64,000 bases of DNA from Qipengyuania flava. GTDB taxonomy: Bacteria > Pseudomonadota > Alphaproteobacteria > Sphingomonadales > Sphingomonadaceae. Made by a program: the position numbers and the translations under genes. Shown here piece by piece: positions 8,529 through 60,440 of this stretch; position 1 is the first letter of the stretch; every line of letters begins with the position of its first letter. The DNA lies in NCBI RefSeq assembly GCF_019448255.1, contig NZ_CP080410.1, forward strand, positions 1,984,001 through 2,048,000, written 5' to 3'. The notes beneath the pieces are model-generated. The model made no database searches, had not been told where the DNA came from, and saw only the letters and a program-made list of their open reading frames with translations.

Positions 8529-10184
8529 ATGGCCAAGCCGCCGACGAAGAAACGCACTGCCAAACGCAAGGGCCCGGAGAAGTTTGGCCAGCGCCGGCTC
8601 GAAGTCCGCGGGGCGATGATCAAGGACATCCCCGGCATCGCGAACCTTGTGCGCCGTGTGTACGAGGACATGCCCGCCTACACCCACGGCGAAATCCGCG
8701 GGCAGATCAACAACTTCAAGGAAGGCTGCTTTGTCGCGCTGCTGGACGACGAGGTGGTCGGCTATTGCGCGACCATGCAGATCGCCGAAGCGCTGGCCTT
8801 CCAGGACCACGACTGGGACGAGATCACCGGCAATGGCTATGGCAGCCGCCATGATCCCACCGGCGACTGGCTCTACGGCTACGAGATGTGCGTCGATCCC
8901 AAGGTGCGCGGTGTGCGCATCGGACGGCGCCTGTATGAAGAGCGCCGCGCGCTGGCCGAAGAAAAAGACCTCACTGGCATCGTCTTTGCCGGCCGCATGC
9001 CCAACTATCGCCGCTTCCGCCGGCGTGTGGACGGCCCGCAGGACTATCTGGACAAGGTGGTCGAGAAAAAGCTGCACGATCCCGTCCTGCGCTTCCAGAT
9101 GGCCAACGGGTTCGAGCCCGAACGCATCCTCGAAGGCTACCTGCCCGAAGACAAGGCGAGCATGGCCAACGCCGTGATGATGGTCTGGCGCAACCCCTAT
9201 GTGGAGCGCGACCAGCCGGTGAAGAAGCGCCTGCCGCGCGGGGTGGAATCGGTGCGTGTGGCGACCTGCCAGCTGCAGGCACGCCAGCTTGCCGACTACG
9301 ACGAATTCATGCGCGCCATCGAATATTTCGTCGATGTTGCAAGCGATTACGAAAGCGACTTCATCGTCTTTCCCGAGCTGTTCACACTGATGCTGCTGAG
9401 CTTCGAGGAAAAGGAGCTCTCGCCGGTCGAGGCGATCGAGCGCCTGTCCGAATACACCCCCCGCCTGCGCAGCGACATTTCCGAGATGGCGATGCGCTAC
9501 AACATCAACATCATCGCCGGATCGCATCCCACGCGGATGGAGGACGGGGACATCCATAATGTCGCCTATGTCTGCCTGCGCGACGGGTCGGTCCATGCTC
9601 AGGAGAAGATCCACCCGACGCCCAACGAGCGCTACTGGTGGAACATCAAGGGCGGCGACAAGGTCGAGGTTATCCAGACCGACTGCGGGCCGATCGGCGT
9701 GCAGATCTGCTACGATAGCGAGTTCCCCGAACTCAGCCGCCGGCTCGCCGACGAAGGCGCGCGGATCATCTTCGTGCCCTTCTGCACCGATAGCCGCCAG
9801 GGCTATCTGCGCGTGCGCTATTGCGGCCAGGCGCGCGCGATCGAGAACCAGTGTTTCGTGGTCCTCTCGGGCAATGTCGGGAACCTGCCAAACGTCGCCA
9901 ATATGGACATCCAGTATGCGCAAAGCTGCATCCTGACGCCCTGCGACTTTCCCTTCGCGCGCGACGGGATCGCGGCCGAGGCCAGCGAGAACGTGGAGAC
10001 GCTGACCATCAGCGACATCAACCTTGCCGACCTGAGCTGGGCCCGCGCCGAAGGAACGGTCCGCAATCTCGCCGACCGGCGTTTCGATCTCTACCGCATC
10101 GAGTGGGACGAGGACGGCAAGCACCCCGGAAAGCCGCGCCCGCGCCGCGAACCGCTCGGCCCCTCGCACGCCGGTGGCGGCTGA
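8529..10184 (+). CDS. GNAT acetyltransferase-carbon-nitrogen hydrolase fusion
   Basis: A 551-aa bifunctional protein. Residues about 22-220 form a GNAT domain with an acetyl-CoA loop (RGVRIGRRL, about 127-135). Residues about 242-535 form a nitrilase-superfamily amidase with the complete catalytic triad: Glu283 (FPELF), Lys360 (QEKIHPTPNE) and Cys394 (QICYDSEFPE). The basic N-terminal extension (KPPTKKRTAKRK) is family-typical. The two domains are presumed to act on one substrate, but that substrate is unknown. The gene stands alone between icd and a xylanase. Confidence 0.92.
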   Translation: MAKPPTKKRTAKRKGPEKFGQRRLEVRGAMIKDIPGIANLVRRVYEDMPAYTHGEIRGQINNFKEGCFVALLDDEVVGYCATMQIAEALAFQDHDWDEITGNGYGSRHDPTGDWLYGYEMCVDPKVRGVRIGRRLYEERRALAEEKDLTGIVFAGRMPNYRRFRRRVDGPQDYLDKVVEKKLHDPVLRFQMANGFEPERILEGYLPEDKASMANAVMMVWRNPYVERDQPVKKRLPRGVESVRVATCQLQARQLADYDEFMRAIEYFVDVASDYESDFIVFPELFTLMLLSFEEKELSPVEAIERLSEYTPRLRSDISEMAMRYNINIIAGSHPTRMEDGDIHNVAYVCLRDGSVHAQEKIHPTPNERYWWNIKGGDKVEVIQTDCGPIGVQICYDSEFPELSRRLADEGARIIFVPFCTDSRQGYLRVRYCGQARAIENQCFVVLSGNVGNLPNVANMDIQYAQSCILTPCDFPFARDGIAAEASENVETLTISDINLADLSWARAEGTVRNLADRRFDLYRIEWDEDGKHPGKPRPRREPLGPSHAGGG

Positions 10185-37102: not shown

Positions 37103-38317
37103 ATGTCCGATATCAAACGCGTCGTCCTCGCCTATTCCGGCGGTCTCGATACTTCCGTCATTGCGAAATGGCTGGAAGTCGAGCGAGGGCTCGAGGTGGT
37201 GACTTTCACCGCCGATCTCGGACAGGGCGAGGAAATCGAACCGGCGCGCGAGAAGGCCCGCGCCATGGGCATTCCCGACAAGCACATCTTCATCGAAGAT
37301 TTGCGCGAGGAATTCGTGCGCGATTTCGTGTTCCCGATGATGCGCGCCAACGCCCGTTATGAAGGCGACTATTTGCTCGGCACCAGCATCGCGCGCCCGC
37401 TGATCTCCAAGCGCCTCGTCGAAATCGCGCACGAAACCGGCGCCGACGCCATCGCCCATGGCGCGACCGGCAAGGGCAACGACCAGGTGCGTTTTGAGCT
37501 GTCGGCCTACGCGCTCGATCCGGACATCAAGGTCATCGCCCCCTGGCGCGAATGGGACCTCACCAGCCGCACCGCGCTGATCGCCTGGGCCGAGGCGCAC
37601 CAGATCGCGGTGCCAAAGGACAAGCGCGGCGAGAGCCCCTTCTCGACCGATGCGAACCTCCTCCACACCTCGTCCGAGGGCAAGGTGCTCGAGGACCCGT
37701 GGGAAGAGACGCCGGACTACGTCTATTCGCGCACGGACCATCCGGAAGACGCGCCCGACACGCCCGAATACATCACGATCGATTTCGAGAAGGGTGACGG
37801 CGTCGCGCTCAATGGCGAAGCGATGAGCCCGGCTACGCTGCTGACCGCGCTCAACGATCTCGGCCGCAAGCACGGCATCGGCCGGCTCGACCTGGTCGAG
37901 AACCGTTTCGTCGGCATGAAGAGCCGTGGCATGTACGAGACGCCCGGCGGCGAGATCTATGCGCGCGCCCACCGCGGCATCGAGCAGATCACGCTTGATC
38001 GCGGCGCGGCACACCTCAAAGACGAGCTCATGCCGCGCTACGCCGAACTGGTGTACAACGGCCTGTGGTTCAGCCCCGAGCGCGAGATGCTGCAGGCTGC
38101 AATCGACCTCAGCCAGGAAAAAGTGGCCGGGACCGTCCGGCTCAAGCTCTACAAGGGCAACGCGATGGTCGTTGGCCGCAAGTCGGACGCCTCGCTCTAC
38201 TCCGAAGCGCATGTGACCTTCGAAGATGACGCCGGGGCTTACGACCAGAAGGACGCGGAAGGCTTTATCAAGCTGAACGCGCTGCGCCTGCGCCTGCTCG
38301 CCAAGCGCGACCGTTAG
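37103..38317 (+). CDS. argG: argininosuccinate synthase
   Basis: A 404-aa enzyme of arginine synthesis that joins citrulline and aspartate using ATP. The PP-loop is [10 protein letters not shown] (about 10-19). Further landmarks are [17 protein letters not shown] and [19 protein letters not shown] three codons upstream (37094) is an alternative start, but [14 protein letters not shown] is the family start. Confidence 0.98.
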
Positions 38318-38346: not shown

Positions 38347-38569
38347 TATTGCGTCGCCGGCGTGACGATCGTTACAAATTTGCGACGAGCGGTTGAGTTA
38401 TCCACCGCACTCCACAAGCGATTCTGCGGAAAGTGGATAACTGCGGCCTTGCCAGCTTGCCGAATCGTCCGATCAGGGGCAGCTTCAAGTCATCGGAACG
38501 GCGAAGGACTTCCACCGGATCGACGGCTTAACGGCCTGAAATCTAGGAGAAATTCCAGACCGGAAAGAC

Positions 38570-38656
38570 ATGGAAGAAGCTGTCCATGTGTTTCTTGAGA
38601 CCGAGATGCGGGAGGCTTCGGCCAAGCGCAAGGAGGTCGATGACGGGAACGCTTAG
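38570..38656 (+). CDS. possible 28-codon small ORF
   Basis: An ATG-to-TAG frame encoding a charged 28-aa peptide (MEEAVHVFLETEMREA...). A weak GGAAAG lies 3-8 bases upstream. The start codon sits inside a perfect 7-bp hairpin (38568-38589), so the frame may be incidental to an RNA structure or a regulated leader peptide. Confidence 0.15.
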   Translation: MEEAVHVFLETEMREASAKRKEVDDGNA

Positions 38657-38985
38657 GTCTTCATTCATGGATCGAGCCAACCCGGCTCGGATGCCGAAGG
38701 AGGCGTCGAAGGAAGGTCTTCGGACCGGACAGCGATGCAACCGCTTGAGGCAACCGGCCACTAACGGAAGGCACGATCGCGGAGCCGCCTGTTGAAGGTT
38801 GGTCTGGGACAGAAGCGAGGGTTTCACGACCTGGCGCACTTGACCGGATCAGGTGGAGGGCGGAGCCGGATGCCGGTGCGAGCGCCGGTGACAGACCCGG
38901 ACGCGGTGTCTTCGGACGCAGCGAAAGGGAAAAGCATCGGATGCCAAGTTCCTGCCTTCGGGCAAGACCACGCATCGGTGAGAGT

Positions 38986-39009
38986 GGGGTCGGCAGCGAT
39001 GCCGGCCCC
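38986..39009 (+). terminator. terminator-like hairpin closing the argG-rlpA gap
   Basis: A 9-bp stem GGGGTCGGC/GCCGGCCCC (one wobble) with loop AGCGAT, followed by ATTTGCTTTGG. It points to a plus-strand transcript ending here, 165 bp before rlpA. Confidence 0.6.
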
Positions 39010-39173
39010 ATTTGCTTTGGAACACCCCCGCCCCCGCAAATTGGCCCGGACAGCGCGTTTTCGCGGTGAAACCGCGACGAACTGTGGCGGGAACGGGGCA
39101 GTTTTTGTCCACATTAGGGACTTCCCATTCTTCCTCCCGTATAGACGCGGGAGCTGAACGGGAGGTCCGCATC

Positions 39174-39689
39174 ATGGCCAAACGCGCGTTTCACAGCCTG
39201 CTTTTCCTGGCGGCCCTGACCCTGCCTGCCTCGGCAGCGCTGCCCGAAGAGCATTCGCATGCCATCGGCCCCGAGATCGATTTCGAAACCAGCTTTGCAC
39301 GCTTCGAAGCGCTGCCGCCCGCGCCCGAACCCGCCGGCATCGCGGTCGATCTCGACACGTTCGAGCCGCCGATCGAGCAGCCACCCGCCGCTCGCTCCAT
39401 CGGCTCGGGCGTAGCGTCCTACTACGGCCGCCGCTTCCACGGCCGCCGCACCGCCAGTGGCGAGCGGTTCGACATGCACGCCATGACTGCGGCCCACAAA
39501 ACACTGCCTTTCGGCACGCTTGTCGAGGTCACCAATCCTCGCAACGGGCGTTCGGTCACCGTGCGCATCAACGATCGCGGGCCCTTCACCCCGGGCCGCA
39601 CCATCGACCTCAGCCGCGCCGCCGCGACCCAGATCGGCCTGGTCCAGCGGGGCCACGGCACGGTCGAGCTCGCCCTCGTCGAGGGCTGA
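39174..39689 (+). CDS. rlpA: septal ring lytic transglycosylase RlpA family protein
   Basis: A 171-aa exported protein with a signal peptide (FLAALTLPASA). The double-psi beta-barrel domain contains GVASYYGRRFHGRRTASGERFD, MTAAHKTLPFGTLVEVTN and RINDRGPF, covering the conserved catalytic region of RlpA. It lacks a lipobox and a SPOR domain, so it is a short periplasmic form. It would act on denuded glycan strands of peptidoglycan. An upstream in-frame start at 39012 is rejected because the signal peptide begins at 39174. Confidence 0.92.
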   Translation: MAKRAFHSLLFLAALTLPASAALPEEHSHAIGPEIDFETSFARFEALPPAPEPAGIAVDLDTFEPPIEQPPAARSIGSGVASYYGRRFHGRRTASGERFDMHAMTAAHKTLPFGTLVEVTNPRNGRSVTVRINDRGPFTPGRTIDLSRAAATQIGLVQRGHGTVELALVEG

Positions 39690-41585: not shown

Positions 41586-42890
41586 ATGTCGAGCACTCCA
41601 ATCGACAAGAACTTCGCTATAAGGGCTAAGATACAGCAAACTTACAGGGCAATTGAACAAATGTTCGGAAAAAGGCTTACACCGCGTGACGTATTCACCC
41701 CAAGGGCGCACGAACTAAATCAAAGAACTTACGCAAGACGAGATGAACTGGAAACAGCGCTTAAGGACGCGATGCTAGGTCACAAATACATCATCGTACA
41801 TGGCGAAAGCGGAAATGGTAAAACTTGGCTTTATAAAAAGGTTTTTGAAGAACTCAGCACCCCATGCACGGTAATAAATCTCGCCAAATTGATTACTGAA
41901 AAATCATTGAATGCTGTCATTTCATCGAAACTCGGCGAACTTGGCTATGAGGAACAAACCTCTCAAACACAAGAACTCGATGCAGGGGCAAAACCTGGTG
42001 GAATTGGTGCAAACTATAAGCACAAGTACACTTACGAGGGACGTCAAATCGGCGCAATCGAGGCGCTAGCCTTACATTTAAAGAAACTTCACGGAAAGCC
42101 AGGCGTAGTCGTCCTCGATAACTTTGAACAGATTATATCGAAGGATAATTACGTTGAAGAAATTGCTGCGCTTATTATCTCCGCAGATGAGGATGTGATT
42201 GCTAGTACGGGCATAAAATTTCTAATTGTGGGCACTCCAACGAACATTATGGAGATGCTTTCAAAAGTCTCGGACGCCTCTACGATCGCGAATAGGTTCG
42301 TAGAAATACCCGAGGTAGCCCGCCTTGGCTTGGCAGAGTCTCGCTACATCATGAGCCAAGGGTTCGAAAAGCACCTCGATACGACGTTCATCATCGATAA
42401 GAACAAACTGTACCGCGAAATCAGTTACAAAACCGATGGCATAGCCCAACAGGTTCAAGAACTCTGCCTTCAGATCGCAATCAATGCCAGCAAGGAAGGC
42501 GGAAAAATAACTGAGAAGACTCTCATTCAATCGGAAAAACAGTGGCTTAACGCAACCCTCTCGGCGGATAGAAATGCCGTTATTGGACACATGAATTCGC
42601 AAGAGACGAAAGTTGGGAGGAAAGACCAAACCATTTATTGCCTTGGTCACATGCCTAAAGAAGAGTTCAAATTGACCGATGTGGAAAACGAAGTGAGGAG
42701 GACTTTTTCCGTTCCACATACAAAGAGTTTGAACATTCCACAGATCTTAGCGGATTTTCAGAAAGGATCCCATCCGATAATTAGAAAATCACCTCGCAAT
42801 AGTCACTACAGCTTCCGCTCTCCAAAATATAAAATGGTCATTCGCTCTATGCTATATCTGGACGAAGACCAAAAGGTGCGGATCCGTTAA
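41586..42890 (+). CDS. stand-alone P-loop ATPase with possible C-terminal winged helix
   Basis: A 434-aa protein, visibly AT-rich compared with its neighbours, indicating horizontal acquisition. It has Walker A GESGNGKT (73-80), Walker B VVVLDNFE (174-181), a sensor-1-like LIVGTPTN (about 213-220) and an arginine in STIANRFVE (about 237). This arrangement resembles AAA/ORC- or STAND-type ATPases. The C-terminus (SFRSPKYKMVIRSML) resembles the last strand-helix of an ORC-type winged helix. No nuclease, TIR or transmembrane domain was seen. The frame is open from a TTG at 41523, but the ATG at 41586 is preferred. The role is unknown; defence or mobile-element biology is inference from context. 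Confidence 0.8.
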   Translation: MSSTPIDKNFAIRAKIQQTYRAIEQMFGKRLTPRDVFTPRAHELNQRTYARRDELETALKDAMLGHKYIIVHGESGNGKTWLYKKVFEELSTPCTVINLAKLITEKSLNAVISSKLGELGYEEQTSQTQELDAGAKPGGIGANYKHKYTYEGRQIGAIEALALHLKKLHGKPGVVVLDNFEQIISKDNYVEEIAALIISADEDVIASTGIKFLIVGTPTNIMEMLSKVSDASTIANRFVEIPEVARLGLAESRYIMSQGFEKHLDTTFIIDKNKLYREISYKTDGIAQQVQELCLQIAINASKEGGKITEKTLIQSEKQWLNATLSADRNAVIGHMNSQETKVGRKDQTIYCLGHMPKEEFKLTDVENEVRRTFSVPHTKSLNIPQILADFQKGSHPIIRKSPRNSHYSFRSPKYKMVIRSMLYLDEDQKVRIR

Positions 42891-42980
42891 ATTCGTTTCT
42901 TTACGCTGGCGATATAACGCCTTTTCGGAGAATTGTTGGCGGGGAATTTAGAGATCTTTTTGTACTTTGATTCGCGGGGC

Positions 42981-43003
42981 CTGTGCAGGACATCACTGCA
43001 CAG
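42981..43003. terminator. hairpin between the two convergent island genes
   Basis: A perfect 8-bp stem CTGTGCAG/CTGCACAG with a 7-base loop and flanking GGC/GCC pairing. There is no T run on either side. A second, smaller hairpin with TTTT (GGCG/CGCC, 42908-42925) lies nearer the ATPase stop and is the better terminator candidate. Confidence 0.4.
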
Positions 43004-43036
43004 AGCCGCCGCCATGGGAAACGCTCTGACGCGCGC

Positions 43037-43534
43037 TTAGAGCTTCTTTTCACCAAGAAGCCTTTTGACCTCTCGGACGTATTTTGAAATCTCTGAGATT
43101 TTTGAGAGGGAGTTGAAATGGACCGTCAAACCATTGCACCCAACTGCAAACATCATGCTCCCGCGCTCGTTGTTAAACACGATGAAGGATAAGCCGCTTA
43201 TCTCGAATTCCACTTCCGAGAACTGAAAACGTTCGGTGGTTATATTGGTTGTAGCCAACCTATCCAATGCGGGTATCAACGCGTCGAGATCGCTAAGTTT
43301 GACTAAAGTAGCTGCGGTTTGAGGGTAATCGTCGCCGGTGCTGAGTTCGAATCGAGCGAAGTATGAAGCAGAATTGGTATCGGTTATGATGGCTTCACGA
43401 GCTTCAACTTGGAGCATGCCATAGCTGAGGCCAGAGACGGAACCCACAGGTGTGTAGCTGCGAATAACGATGCCCTTGACGTCGTCTTCTTCGTCGAACT
43501 CAGTAATTACTGGCGCTGTTCGGGCAAGTGTCAT
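43037..43534 (-). CDS. AT-rich hypothetical protein, island partner
   Basis: A 165-aa soluble protein with no signal peptide, membrane segment or known motif. It has mixed alpha/beta composition and a basic C-terminus (YVREVKRLLGEKKL). GGAG about 8 bases before the ATG at 43534 supports the start; longer readings of the frame run into uvrA and are shadows. Composition is less GC-rich than uvrA. It is convergent with the ATPase gene and lies 56 bp after uvrA on the same strand. Confidence 0.7.
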   Translation of the reverse strand: MTLARTAPVITEFDEEDDVKGIVIRSYTPVGSVSGLSYGMLQVEAREAIITDTNSASYFARFELSTGDDYPQTAATLVKLSDLDALIPALDRLATTNITTERFQFSEVEFEISGLSFIVFNNERGSMMFAVGCNGLTVHFNSLSKISEISKYVREVKRLLGEKKL

Positions 43535-43590
43535 TGTTGTCTCCAAGTAGTGTATGCCAGCTACCGCTACACTCCTTTTGCTGAGATAGT

Positions 43591-46506
43591 CTACTCCGCA
43601 GCCTCCCGCTGCCGTTCCAGCATCGGCTTGAGATACTGCCCAGTATAACTCTCCGGCACCTCGGCCACATCCTCCGGCGTACCCTGCGCAACGACCTCGC
43701 CGCCCCGCACGCCGCCGCCGGGGCCGAGGTCGAGGATGTGGTCGGCGGTCTTGATGACGTCGAGATTGTGCTCGATCACCACCACCGAATTGCCCTGGTC
43801 CACCAGCCGGTGGAGCACTTCGAGGAGCTTCCTCACATCCTCGAAATGGAGGCCCGTGGTGGGCTCGTCGAGGATGTAGAGCGTCTGGCCGGTGCTGCGC
43901 TTCGACAGTTCCTTGGCCAGCTTCACGCGCTGCGCCTCGCCGCCTGACAGCGTGGTCGCCTGCTGGCCGACCTTGACGTAGCCCAGCCCCACCTCGTTCA
44001 GCATGTGCATCTTGTCGCGGATCGGGGGGACGGCCTTGAAGAAATCCTCCGCATCCTCGATCGTCATGTCGAGCACGTCGGCGATGGAGTGGCCCTTGAA
44101 CTTCACCTCCAGCGTTTCGCGGTTGTAGCGCTTGCCGCCGCATTCCTCACAGGTGACATAGACGTCGGGCAGGAAGTGCATCTCGATCTTGATCAGGCCG
44201 TCGCCCTGGCATGCCTCGCAGCGGCCGCCCTTGACGTTGAAGCTGAAGCGGCCGGGCTTGTAGCCGCGCGCCTGCGCTTCGGGGAGGCCGGCGAACCAGT
44301 CGCGGATCTGGGTGAAGGCGCCGGTGTAGGTCGCCGGGTTGGAGCGCGGGGTGCGGCCGATGGGCGACTGGTCGATCTCGATCACCTTGTCGCAATATTC
44401 GAGGCCGGTGACCTTGTCGTGCGCGCCCGCCACGATGCGTGCGCCGTTCAGCTGGCGCGCGGCGGAGGCGTAGAGCGTGTCGATGGTGAAGGACGACTTG
44501 CCCGAGCCCGAGACGCCGGTGATGCAGGTAAAGGTACCGAGCGGGATGGAGGCGGTGACGTCGTTCAAATTGTTCGCCCGCGCGCCGTGGACGGTGAGCG
44601 CGTGCCCGTTGCCCTTGCGGCGCGTCTGCGGGACGGAAATCTCGCGCCGGCCGGTAAGGTAGTCCGCGGTGAGCGACTTCTTCGACTTGAGCACCTGTTT
44701 GAGCGTGCCCTGCGCCACCACCTCGCCCCCGCGCACGCCCGCGCCCGGGCCGAGATCGACCACATGGTCCGCCTGGCGGATCGCGTCCTCATCGTGCTCG
44801 ACCACGATTACCGTGTTGCCGAGATCGCGCAGGCGCTTCAATGTTTCGAGCAGCCGGTCGTTGTCGCGCTGGTGGAGGCCGATGCTGGGCTCGTCGAGCA
44901 CGTAGAGCACGCCCGAAAGGCCCGAGCCGATCTGCGAGGCGAGGCGGATGCGCTGGCTTTCACCACCCGACAGCGTACCGCTGGTCCGGTCGAGGTTGAG
45001 GTAATCGAGCCCGACATTGTCGAGGAAGCCCAGCCGCTCGTTGATTTCCTTCAGGATGGCCTTGGCGATCTGGCTTTGCGTGTCGTTCAGCGCCTCGGGC
45101 AGCTTCAGGAAGTACTCCTTCGCATCGGCGACGCTCATCTTGGTGGGCGTGGCGATGTCCGTGCCCGCGATCTTCACCGCCAGCGCCTTCTCGTTGAGGC
45201 GCTTGCCGTGGCAGGTCTCGCACGGCTGGCTGGTCTGGAACTTCGACAGCTCCTCGCGCATCCACGCGCTTTCGGTCTGGAGCATGCGGCGGTTGAGGTT
45301 GCCGATGACGCCCTCGAACGGCTTCTTGACCGTGTACTCCTTGCGCCCGTCCTTGAAGGTGAGCGGGATGGCGCGGCCCTTGGTGCCGTAGAGGATGATC
45401 TCGCGGATCTCGCGGTCGAACTCCTCCCACGGGGTTTCGAGGCTGAACTCGTATTCCTTCGCGAGGGAGGCGAGGACCTGCATGTAATAGGGCGAAGGCG
45501 GGTTGCTCTTCGCCCAGGGCACCACCGCGCCCTTCTTGAGGCTGAGCGCCTCGTTCGGCACGACCAGCTGCGGGTCGAACAGCTGCTTCTCGCCGATGCC
45601 GTCACAGGTCGGGCACGCCCCCTGCGGCGCGTTGAAGGAGAACAGGCGCGGTTCGACTTCCTCGATTGTGAAACCGGAGACGGGGCAGGAGAACTTCTCC
45701 GAAAAGACGATGCGGTTGGCGGGAATGCCCGCCCCCTTCATCGCGCCGCCCGCTGCGCCTTCATCCTCGCGCCCCGGCACCACGCCATCGGCAAGGTCGA
45801 CATAGGCGAGACCGTCGGCCAACTTCAGCGCCGTCTCGAAACTGTCGGCGAGGCGCGTTTCCAGCCCCTCCTTCACCGCGAGGCGATCGACCACTACCTC
45901 GATGTCGTGCTTGAACTTCTTGTCGAGCGCAGGAGCTTCTTCGATCGGATACATCTCGCCGTCGATGCGCACGCGGGTGAAGCCCGCCTTCTGCCACTCG
46001 GCCAGTTCCTTGCGGTATTCGCCCTTGCGCCCGCGCACCACGGGCGCGAGCAGATAGAGCCGCGTGCCCTCGGGCAGCGCCATCACGCGGTCAACCATGT
46101 TGGAGACGGTCTGCGCCTCGATCGGCAGGCCGGTGGCCGGCGAATACGGCACACCCACCCTCGCCCACAACAGGCGCATGTAGTCGTAAATCTCGGTCAC
46201 CGTCGCCACCGTCGAGCGCGGGTTGCGGCTCGTCGTCTTCTGCTCGATCGAGATCGCGGGAGAGAGCCCGTCGATGTGCTCGACATCGGGCTTCTGCATC
46301 ATTTCGAGGAACTGGCGCGCATAGGCCGACAGGCTCTCGACATAACGCCGCTGCCCTTCGGCATAGATCGTGTCGAACGCGAGGCTCGACTTACCCGAGC
46401 CGGAAAGACCCGTGATCACGATCAGGCTATCGCGCGGAAGGTCGATATCGACCCCCTTGAGGTTGTGCTCCCGCGCGCCGCGGACGGATATCTTGGTAAG
46501 AGCCAT
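43591..46506 (-). CDS. uvrA: excinuclease ABC subunit A
   Basis: A 971-aa nucleotide excision repair ATPase that recognises DNA damage with UvrB. It has two ABC ATPase modules (Walker [12 protein letters not shown] near residue 32 and [11 protein letters not shown] in the second half), duplicated LSGGE signatures, and zinc motifs including [21 protein letters not shown] and CEECGGK. The ATG at 46506 begins the family [17 protein letters not shown]. An SOS box lies immediately upstream, so it is expected to be LexA-controlled. Confidence 0.98.
43593..43601. repeat. right copy of 9-bp direct repeat around AT-rich island
   Basis: ACTCCGCAG at the very 3' end of uvrA, overlapping its stop codon, matches 41536-41544 on the other side of the AT-rich genes. 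Confidence 0.3.
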
Positions 46507-60000: not shown

Positions 60001-60104
60001 AATACCTCCTATCACAGACGAATGCCGTCCATGACGGGAGGGAGCGCTCATTCGCCCCATCCACGTTTGCCATCGGTACACCCCGCCCGCGGCCGAACGA
60101 CGCG

Positions 60105-60265
60105 CACAGGCAGGTCTCCTGGCTCCCGGATCGCTGGTTCCGCTTCGCCTTCCCGCTTGCGCAGTGGCGTAATGAAGCGAACCTCCCCGGTCACAGTTGC
60201 GGGGGCAGCGGAGGTCTTGAACCTCCTTCCCTCTTAGGGCCTGCGTCGGCAGGCCAACCTATGAC
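60105..60265 (-). promoter_or_regulatory. cobalamin riboswitch
   Basis: Read on the minus strand, the element contains all the hallmark conserved blocks of the AdoCbl riboswitch in order: AAGAGGGAA, GCTGCCCCCGCAACTGTGA, GCCACTG, GGGAAGG, and the B12 box AGCCAGGAGACCTGCC near its 3' end. It should repress the downstream btuB-F-C-D operon when cobalamin is plentiful. The rest of the 60001-60440 gap holds only the btuB leader and the opposite-strand hydrolase promoter. Confidence 0.97.
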
Positions 60266-60440
60266 GCAATCGCGCCCCTATCGCGCGATTTTGCGATGCA
60301 CAAGAGCCGGGCTTCGTTAAGCTTTGCTGTGGTAAGGGCCTGAAGGCCGATCGTCCCTTAGCGGGATGGGCGCAAGCCGCCGCCTGTCGCATGGGCGGCA
60401 ACTCGGCTATGATTGGACGCAATCCAGGGAAGGACCCGCA

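Follow-up and report, generated by a model that had tools for sequence, protein, structure and literature searches.

Large structured RNAs are few in bacteria, and several of the best-known ones are without a clear function. Another kind of element, of the datA type, is a cluster of DnaA boxes outside the replication origin. The accessible portions of the literature present GOLLD, ROOL and OLE as large ornate bacterial ncRNAs (PMC12286853), give the Soda Lake RNA, or smtA motif, as restricted to Thioalkalivibrio (PMC11109978), and place CcnA of Caulobacter within the replication origin, with CtrA as its presumed activator (PMC8959179). No description of an RNA such as the one reported below was found in the literature searched, which was covered through titles and abstract openings, and an earlier mention may exist. 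In the text available for two surveys of GC-IGRs, none of the sphingomonad names looked for appeared in the one of 50 genomes, and Sphingomonas was named once, for an odc1 uORF motif, in the one of 26 genomes.

The window (the whole stretch of DNA analysed, 64,000 nt) comprises positions 1984001–2048000 of a 2.85-Mb single-contig genome. An earlier note, made from the sequence alone, had proposed that the gap of about 860 nt between argG and rlpA contains an undescribed structured RNA, and the hairpin sequences on which it relied are present where it placed them. The segment 38380–39020 occurs once in the window's genome. We are highly confident that it contains the RNA gene of a real large structured RNA family, new as far as searched. 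The RNA, which probably extends from about 38492 to about 39013, and its neighbours are as follows.

37103–38317, plus strand: argG (argininosuccinate synthase; Pfam PF00764/PF20979), upstream neighbour of the RNA
38492–39013, plus strand: predicted structured RNA of about 520 nt, from comparative models, both ends inferred
39174–39689, plus strand: rlpA (DPBB_1 lytic transglycosylase; PF03330), downstream neighbour of the RNA

Elsewhere in the window, G+C was 0.504 at 42001–44000, compared with about 0.64 around it, perhaps reflecting a foreign insert.

Comparative fold of the predicted RNA

Homologous sequences were available from 203 loci, equivalent to 167 distinct sequences, some genomes being represented twice. 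A recognisable box pair (described below) was present in 166 of these, L207 being dropped, and 145 non-redundant sequences (<92 % identity) were aligned after box 3; L206, with no motif, and 13 loci without a visible argG were left out of the covariation set. Covariation was assessed by a G-test with product correction and tree-based null alignments, an implementation of our own of the idea behind R-scape and not R-scape itself.

The RNAalifold consensus of the 145 sequences contained 133 pairs. A test of all 161,596 column pairs identified five significant pairs with 25 nulls and four with 30, and all five pairs of the 25-null test fell within predicted helices. When only predicted pairs were tested, 32 of 133 covaried significantly (of these, 24 were standard pairs in 70 % or more of the sequences, the other eight in 56–68 %), while eight identically folded null alignments yielded 0, 0, 0, 0, 1, 0, 0 and 0 significant pairs. 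Wide conservation and strong covariation among relatives had both been set as tests beforehand, and the structured RNA candidate passed each. The plus-strand orientation that had been proposed is favoured by fold energy (consensus stability of −153, compared with −119 for the reverse complement), and the conserved helices, when read on the plus strand, contain many G-U pairs. For the window's own sequence, 38492–39012 was more stable on the plus strand than all 100 dinucleotide shuffles (z −3.96), and 2 of 100 shuffles were equally stable for the minus strand (z −2.38). The significant pairs were spread over four 5′ domains and the 3′ domain. The 5′ domains, all on the plus strand, are as follows.

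38493–38568, plus strand: 5′ helical domain, with 38493–38501/38560–38568 (three significant pairs) and 38505–38507/38554–38556 (one)
within 38493–38568, plus strand: inner helices of the 5′ helical domain, no significant pairs
38570–38668, plus strand: second domain, outer helices 38570–38579/38659–38668 (six significant pairs) and 38587–38596/38644–38653 (four)
38570–38668, plus strand: second domain, inner helices 38599–38609/38628–38638 (two significant pairs) and 38614–38616/38621–38623 (one)
38684–38759, plus strand: third domain, 38684–38695/38749–38759, three significant pairs
38670–38675/38773–38778 and 38681–38683/38766–38768, plus strand: helices around the third domain, no significant pairs
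38779–38869, plus strand: fourth domain, 38779–38786/38862–38869 (two significant pairs) and a hairpin, 38820–38823/38828–38831 (two)

The individual hairpins of the earlier note fared unevenly in the comparison. Comparative pairing agreed with those closed by UUCG, where the loop is UUCG or variable, with the CGAG tetraloop hairpin at 38873–38888 (P1 with its flank, below), and with the terminator-like hairpin at 38986–39009, which was extended to 38982–39013. The stem drawn at 38568–38589 occurs in the single-sequence fold and was replaced in the consensus by the 10-bp helix 38570–38579/38659–38668, with its six significant pairs, and the stem at 38673–38689 was absent from the family-level consensus. 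A terminator scan returned 38568–38589 as its sole match, with shuffles averaging 1.1.

The 3′ domain consists of a junction followed by a terminal hairpin.

38871–38980, plus strand: four-way junction, P0 38871–38873/38978–38980 and P1 38874–38878/38883–38887 with a CGAG loop
the same junction, plus strand: P2 38888–38890/38935–38937, and P3 38938–38944/38972–38977 with its arm
38982–39013, plus strand: near-invariant 3′ hairpin with a GNRA loop and a T-rich tail, 99.4 % of cells paired

In the junction, termed fold C, the helices adjoin without unpaired bases, apart from one base that is optionally inserted. Over the 34 pairs of fold C and the 3′ hairpin combined, 95.2 % of cells were paired; 18 of these pairs showed two-sided changes, and the set exceeded all 500 shuffles and every slid register. 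It gave 99 two-sided cells, compared with an average of 29.8 in shuffles and 7–26 in slid registers; the weak spots of fold C were P3 (85.9 % paired) and the three pairs of P0, which change on one side only. An alternative 3′ pairing (fold A) had 82 cells with two-sided changes, and a long-range pairing after RNAalifold (fold B) had 95.1 % of cells paired and 60 two-sided cells, also above all its shuffles. Judged from the alignment, fold B is disfavoured relative to fold C; its GUG/CAU part is retained in fold C as P2, with one pair two-sided in 18 sequences, and a possible exchange of the RNA between folds B and C may be envisaged.

The 3′ hairpin comprises 14 bp, GAGTGGGGTCGGCA-GCRA-TGCCGGCCCCATTT, with two-sided changes in 7 of the 14 pairs. 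It is probably an intrinsic terminator, and was not listed by the terminator scan, its tail being T-rich but interrupted. In locus L025 (genome G009), an unrelated hairpin at about 1500–1540 of GGGGTCGG...CCGGCCCCATTTTCTTT make-up has a better T tail than that of the RNA. This similarity of make-up suggests that the 3′ hairpin would act as an intrinsic terminator, and the GGGGTCGG...CCGGCCCCATTTTCTTT form is perhaps preferred for terminators in the lineage.

Coding potential and known RNA families

The absence of a recognised gene from the gap, as claimed previously, was borne out by Pfam searches, in which six of its open frames had no match. A coding gene was also rejected on the basis of flat codon-position identities (0.656, 0.649 and 0.652 on the minus strand; 0.619, 0.600 and 0.648 on the plus strand) and of gaps that did not fall in threes (8483 of 9578 gap runs were not multiples of three, a count inflated by alignment fragmentation). 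On the minus strand, open-frame codons were common to up to 77 % of sequences; we attribute the open minus-strand frames to the T-poor composition of the plus strand. A long covarying secondary structure without a coding signal, by which a large structured bacterial ncRNA is recognised, was found at this locus. A CsrA sponge of the CsrB/RsmY type was considered and rejected, as an excess of GGA motifs over dinucleotide shuffles was inconsistent among five sequences (L001 had 27 compared with 20.3, or 2.2 sd; L205 and L189 exceeded the shuffles by about 1 sd; L037 and L061 had no excess).

Rfam families include GOLLD, ROOL, OLE, HEARO and raiA. Covariance searches with Rfam 15 (4227 families) gave no match at cut-off for the RNA in the window, for 10 genus-level loci or for 13 family-level loci, in keeping with the earlier suggestion of an undescribed family. 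Lenient searches of the 23 loci produced three sub-threshold matches, the best of which over a homologue was BjrC68 on the opposite strand of L208 (25.4 bits against a cut-off of 39, E 0.023). The sole Rfam match in the window was a cobalamin riboswitch at 60092–60276 on the minus strand (120.5 bits). The size and elaborate fold of the RNA would suit a diverged member of a known family such as RNase P, tmRNA, 6S, SRP or another. However, neither RNase P RNA (RF00010) nor alpha tmRNA (RF01849) matched at the locus, as the earlier note had judged by eye, and both are encoded elsewhere in the genome (890478–890878, 304 bits, and 2276444–2276788, 231 bits, respectively). With no Rfam cut-off reached, and three matches below threshold, membership of a known family is very improbable.

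Upstream boxes and promoter-like pair

Between argG and the folded part of the RNA lie three short sites resembling DnaA boxes and, in register with them, a promoter-like pair.

38398–38405, plus strand: box 1, TTATCCAC, DnaA-box-like, conserved in sequence and register
38411–38415, plus strand: box 2 core, TCCAC, at a constant distance from box 1
38433–38440, minus strand: box 3, inverted TTATCCAC (TTTTCCAC in other sequences), in a 43-nt register
38457–38462, plus strand: −35-like element TTGCCG, from a gapless stack of homologues, TTG at 1.6–1.7 bits
38480–38485, plus strand: −10-like element CAGCTT after a 17-nt spacer, hexamer A2 at 1.8 and T6 at 1.7 bits

The arrangement TT.TCCAC-5-TCCAC-17-GTGGA.AA was maintained in its exact 43-nt register in 152 of 166 trimmed sequences. 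Among these 166, box 1 was TTATCCAC in 135, TTGTCCAC in 16 and TTTTCCAC in eight, and box 3, read inverted, was TTATCCAC in at least 103 and TTTTCCAC in at least 56. The earlier note had interpreted 38397–38441 as a 9+4-bp RNA stem. This was rejected, as the spacing is fixed and the third bases of boxes 1 and 3 do not covary (A,A 80; A,T 50; G,A 13; T,T 4; T,A 4; G,T 2; n=153 with both cores). The independent variation of the two arms indicates DNA sites and not a conserved stem. A scan of 21 genomes, allowing up to two mismatches, detected the triple element once per genome in 10, all of the same genus, and not in three same-genus genomes without the RNA. A TTGCGACGAACCGTTGAC-like segment directly before box 1 (38380–38397) was conserved in many homologues and is possibly a further protein site.

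The usual DnaA-box consensus is TT(A/T)TNCACA. The sites at the promoter-like pair, TT(A/G/T)TCCAC in fixed register, are candidate DnaA boxes, mostly without the full TTATCCACA: the ninth base was A in only three copies of box 1 and four of box 3 among the 166 sequences, the full motif occurred in none of the window's boxes, and box 2 is without the TTA. An identity of the locus with oriC was rejected, there being no clear skew switch there and hemE lying at 169655–170656 of the genome, about 1.0 Mb away by the shorter way round. Sphingomonad origins are predicted near hemE (PMC4741004). A putative oriC was observed in L273 at about 8650–9050 (genome about 170650–171050), between hemE and a PSRP-like gene named by eye. 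It contains TTATCCTC-4-TCCCC, in a layout like that of boxes 1 and 2, together with two half-matching boxes; these are degenerate and lack TTATCCACA, and a strict TT(A/T)TNCAC scan had no match in this putative origin. Consequently, the specificity of DnaA in the lineage is uncertain.

When the sequences with the exact box element (131 of 145) were stacked without gaps, CTTG was conserved at 1.1–1.7 bits, with CAnnnT located 17 nt beyond the TTGnnn hexamer. The A and T at those −10 positions are the most critical in a sigma-70 −10 element. A strict consensus promoter scan found no promoter at the locus, so the promoter proposal derives from conservation. We infer a transcription start near 38492, immediately before the first conserved helix.

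The fixed register of the three boxes, and the rarity of TTATCCAC in the genome (15 sites, two of them in the array, compared with 37 for a reversed control), are features that a chromosomal DNA element would share, such as a datA-like site of DnaA titration or hydrolysis whose hairpins have no function as RNA. However, covarying structure with a preference for one strand extends over about 520 nt after the boxes, and a titration site needs no RNA fold; we regard this explanation as quite unlikely. In the mechanism that we propose for an RNA gene, RNA polymerase would start near 38492 and stop at the 3′ hairpin near 39013, and the three boxes would be bound by DnaA or by another protein that shares its specificity. 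When bound there, this protein would raise or lower transcription of the RNA along the replication cycle. Control by DnaA is put forward tentatively, as a possibility suggested by the form and register of the boxes.

Distribution and neighbouring genes

A blastn search of 41 genomes (25 of the genus, including the window's own, and 16 of the order) detected the locus in 21, all of the same genus, with homologues 61–80 % identical to the window within the genus; G001, G008, G010 and G024 had no match to the locus. A covariance model built on the 3′ domain from 18 sequences (R1) scored at least 46 bits in 123 of 397 family genomes, with the next match at 40.9 bits, and its total of 218 at E≤0.001 takes in weak matches. 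Among 289 class genomes, four outside the family reached 30–38.5 bits, and R1 scores below about 45 bits were therefore counted as background. A second model (R2, built from the 46 sequences that were left when the nine longest of a selected 55 were omitted) scored at least 65.7 bits in 114 of 396 order genomes and peaked at 41.6 bits or less in 13 more. All 127 belong to the window's family, f1; as the 396 order genomes were counted without division by family, they set only a loose outer bound on the distribution of the RNA. The 3′-hairpin pattern was present in at least 119 stretches of species-level genomes. Records named to genus among the matches listed were Qipengyuania, Erythrobacter, Altererythrobacter, Porphyrobacter, Aurantiacibacter, Croceibacterium, Citromicrobium and others, which we take to be Erythrobacteraceae-type names, and the remaining records of the pattern among those listed were named only to a higher rank. 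In all, the RNA is present in more than 100 related species, including named cultured strains.

An RNA-poor sample was drawn from 44 further genomes, with argG matched in 43 and 30 loci examined, all of the family and with R1 absent or weak. In five of these (L223, L224, L227, L228 and L229) argG lies near rlpA and the RNA is missing. L223 retains a TTTGCGACGAACCG remnant of the segment preceding box 1, and its RNA-less state looks like a deletion. L225 and L230 have a similar box element and may hold diverged copies missed by R1.

The gene neighbourhood was nearly constant. Among the 216 loci that carry the 3′ motif, 203 have a co-oriented argG directly upstream of the RNA, and the remaining 13 comprise L044, chance matches in L025 and L177, and ten loci whose left end is only 68–812 nt before the motif. 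This arrangement would fit a structured 3′UTR of argG, excised from the argG mRNA or stabilising it, with one clear exception. In L044, which keeps the RNA, boxes and promoter-like pair, argG is replaced upstream by other genes; positions 1–1100 carry histidine kinase/hprK-like genes (named by eye) ahead of the RNA–rlpA segment, a rearrangement. The RNA thus occurs with its boxes behind an hprK-like gene and, where argG is present, the conserved boxes and promoter-like pair separate it from the folded part, which makes a 3′UTR an improbable reading.

Downstream, 206 of the 216 loci have rlpA in the same orientation as the RNA and one (L211) has it reversed; it was not seen in nine, namely L062, L209, two chance matches and five loci ending within 730 nt. 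With a co-oriented rlpA so regularly downstream and a 3′ hairpin that is nearly invariant, the RNA could be a giant cis-acting leader of rlpA, with the hairpin serving as a ligand- or protein-controlled attenuator. For such a leader the downstream gene would be constant and co-oriented. However, L062 and L209 have the RNA with no rlpA in 5.6 and 2.1 kb, respectively, of available downstream sequence, rlpA is reversed in L211, and the estimated distance from RNA to rlpA ranges from 115 to 842 nt (175 alignments). The RNA is also far longer than usual riboswitches, which are much shorter than about 520 nt. A leader is an unlikely explanation, if slightly less so than a 3′UTR. The exceptions in L044, L062, L209 and L211 indicate that the RNA gene requires neither argG nor rlpA.

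The reading that we favour, and consider probable, is an independent gene for a structured ncRNA of about 520 nt, with a fixed chromosomal place in Erythrobacteraceae-type sphingomonads, transcription responsive to DnaA and a role in trans or in an RNP. The last element, taken by itself, is rather likely. Acting in trans, the RNA would serve as a folded scaffold or as the partner of a protein, and not as a simple base-pairing sRNA, as helices are conserved over most of its length; a cis role would also fit the near-constant linkage to argG and rlpA. A more ambitious and doubtful proposal is that it represents a new class of large ncRNA with a four-way junction, switched by DnaA through an origin-like array of three boxes, that couples replication to another process in Erythrobacteraceae. 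If DnaA does control the RNA, the replication cycle would have in it a direct output in the form of RNA. A comparative model of the RNA is now at hand, some relatives have lost it naturally, and its promoter-like element suggests a regulator that can be tested.

Large structured ncRNAs of obscure function are already known as a kind, and the present family matches none in Rfam. As far as the available accounts describe them, GOLLD, ROOL and OLE resemble this RNA in their hundreds of nucleotides, many covarying helices and poorly understood function, whereas the present RNA has no Rfam match and belongs to another lineage; unlike the phage-borne GOLLD, it is chromosomally fixed and single in the window's genome. 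The Soda Lake RNA, or smtA motif, is similarly large (>350 nt), found in a narrow lineage, backed by covariation and of unknown function, but that RNA is given as restricted to Thioalkalivibrio (a comparison made by description and by the Rfam searches). CcnA, on the partial account available, is likewise an alphaproteobacterial ncRNA tied to the replication cycle, a tie that for the present RNA is a proposal only; unlike CcnA, the present locus lies about 1.0 Mb from hemE, with DnaA-box-like sites. Its cluster of DnaA-box-like sites away from the origin recalls datA, but a promoter-like pair and a structured RNA come after the present cluster.
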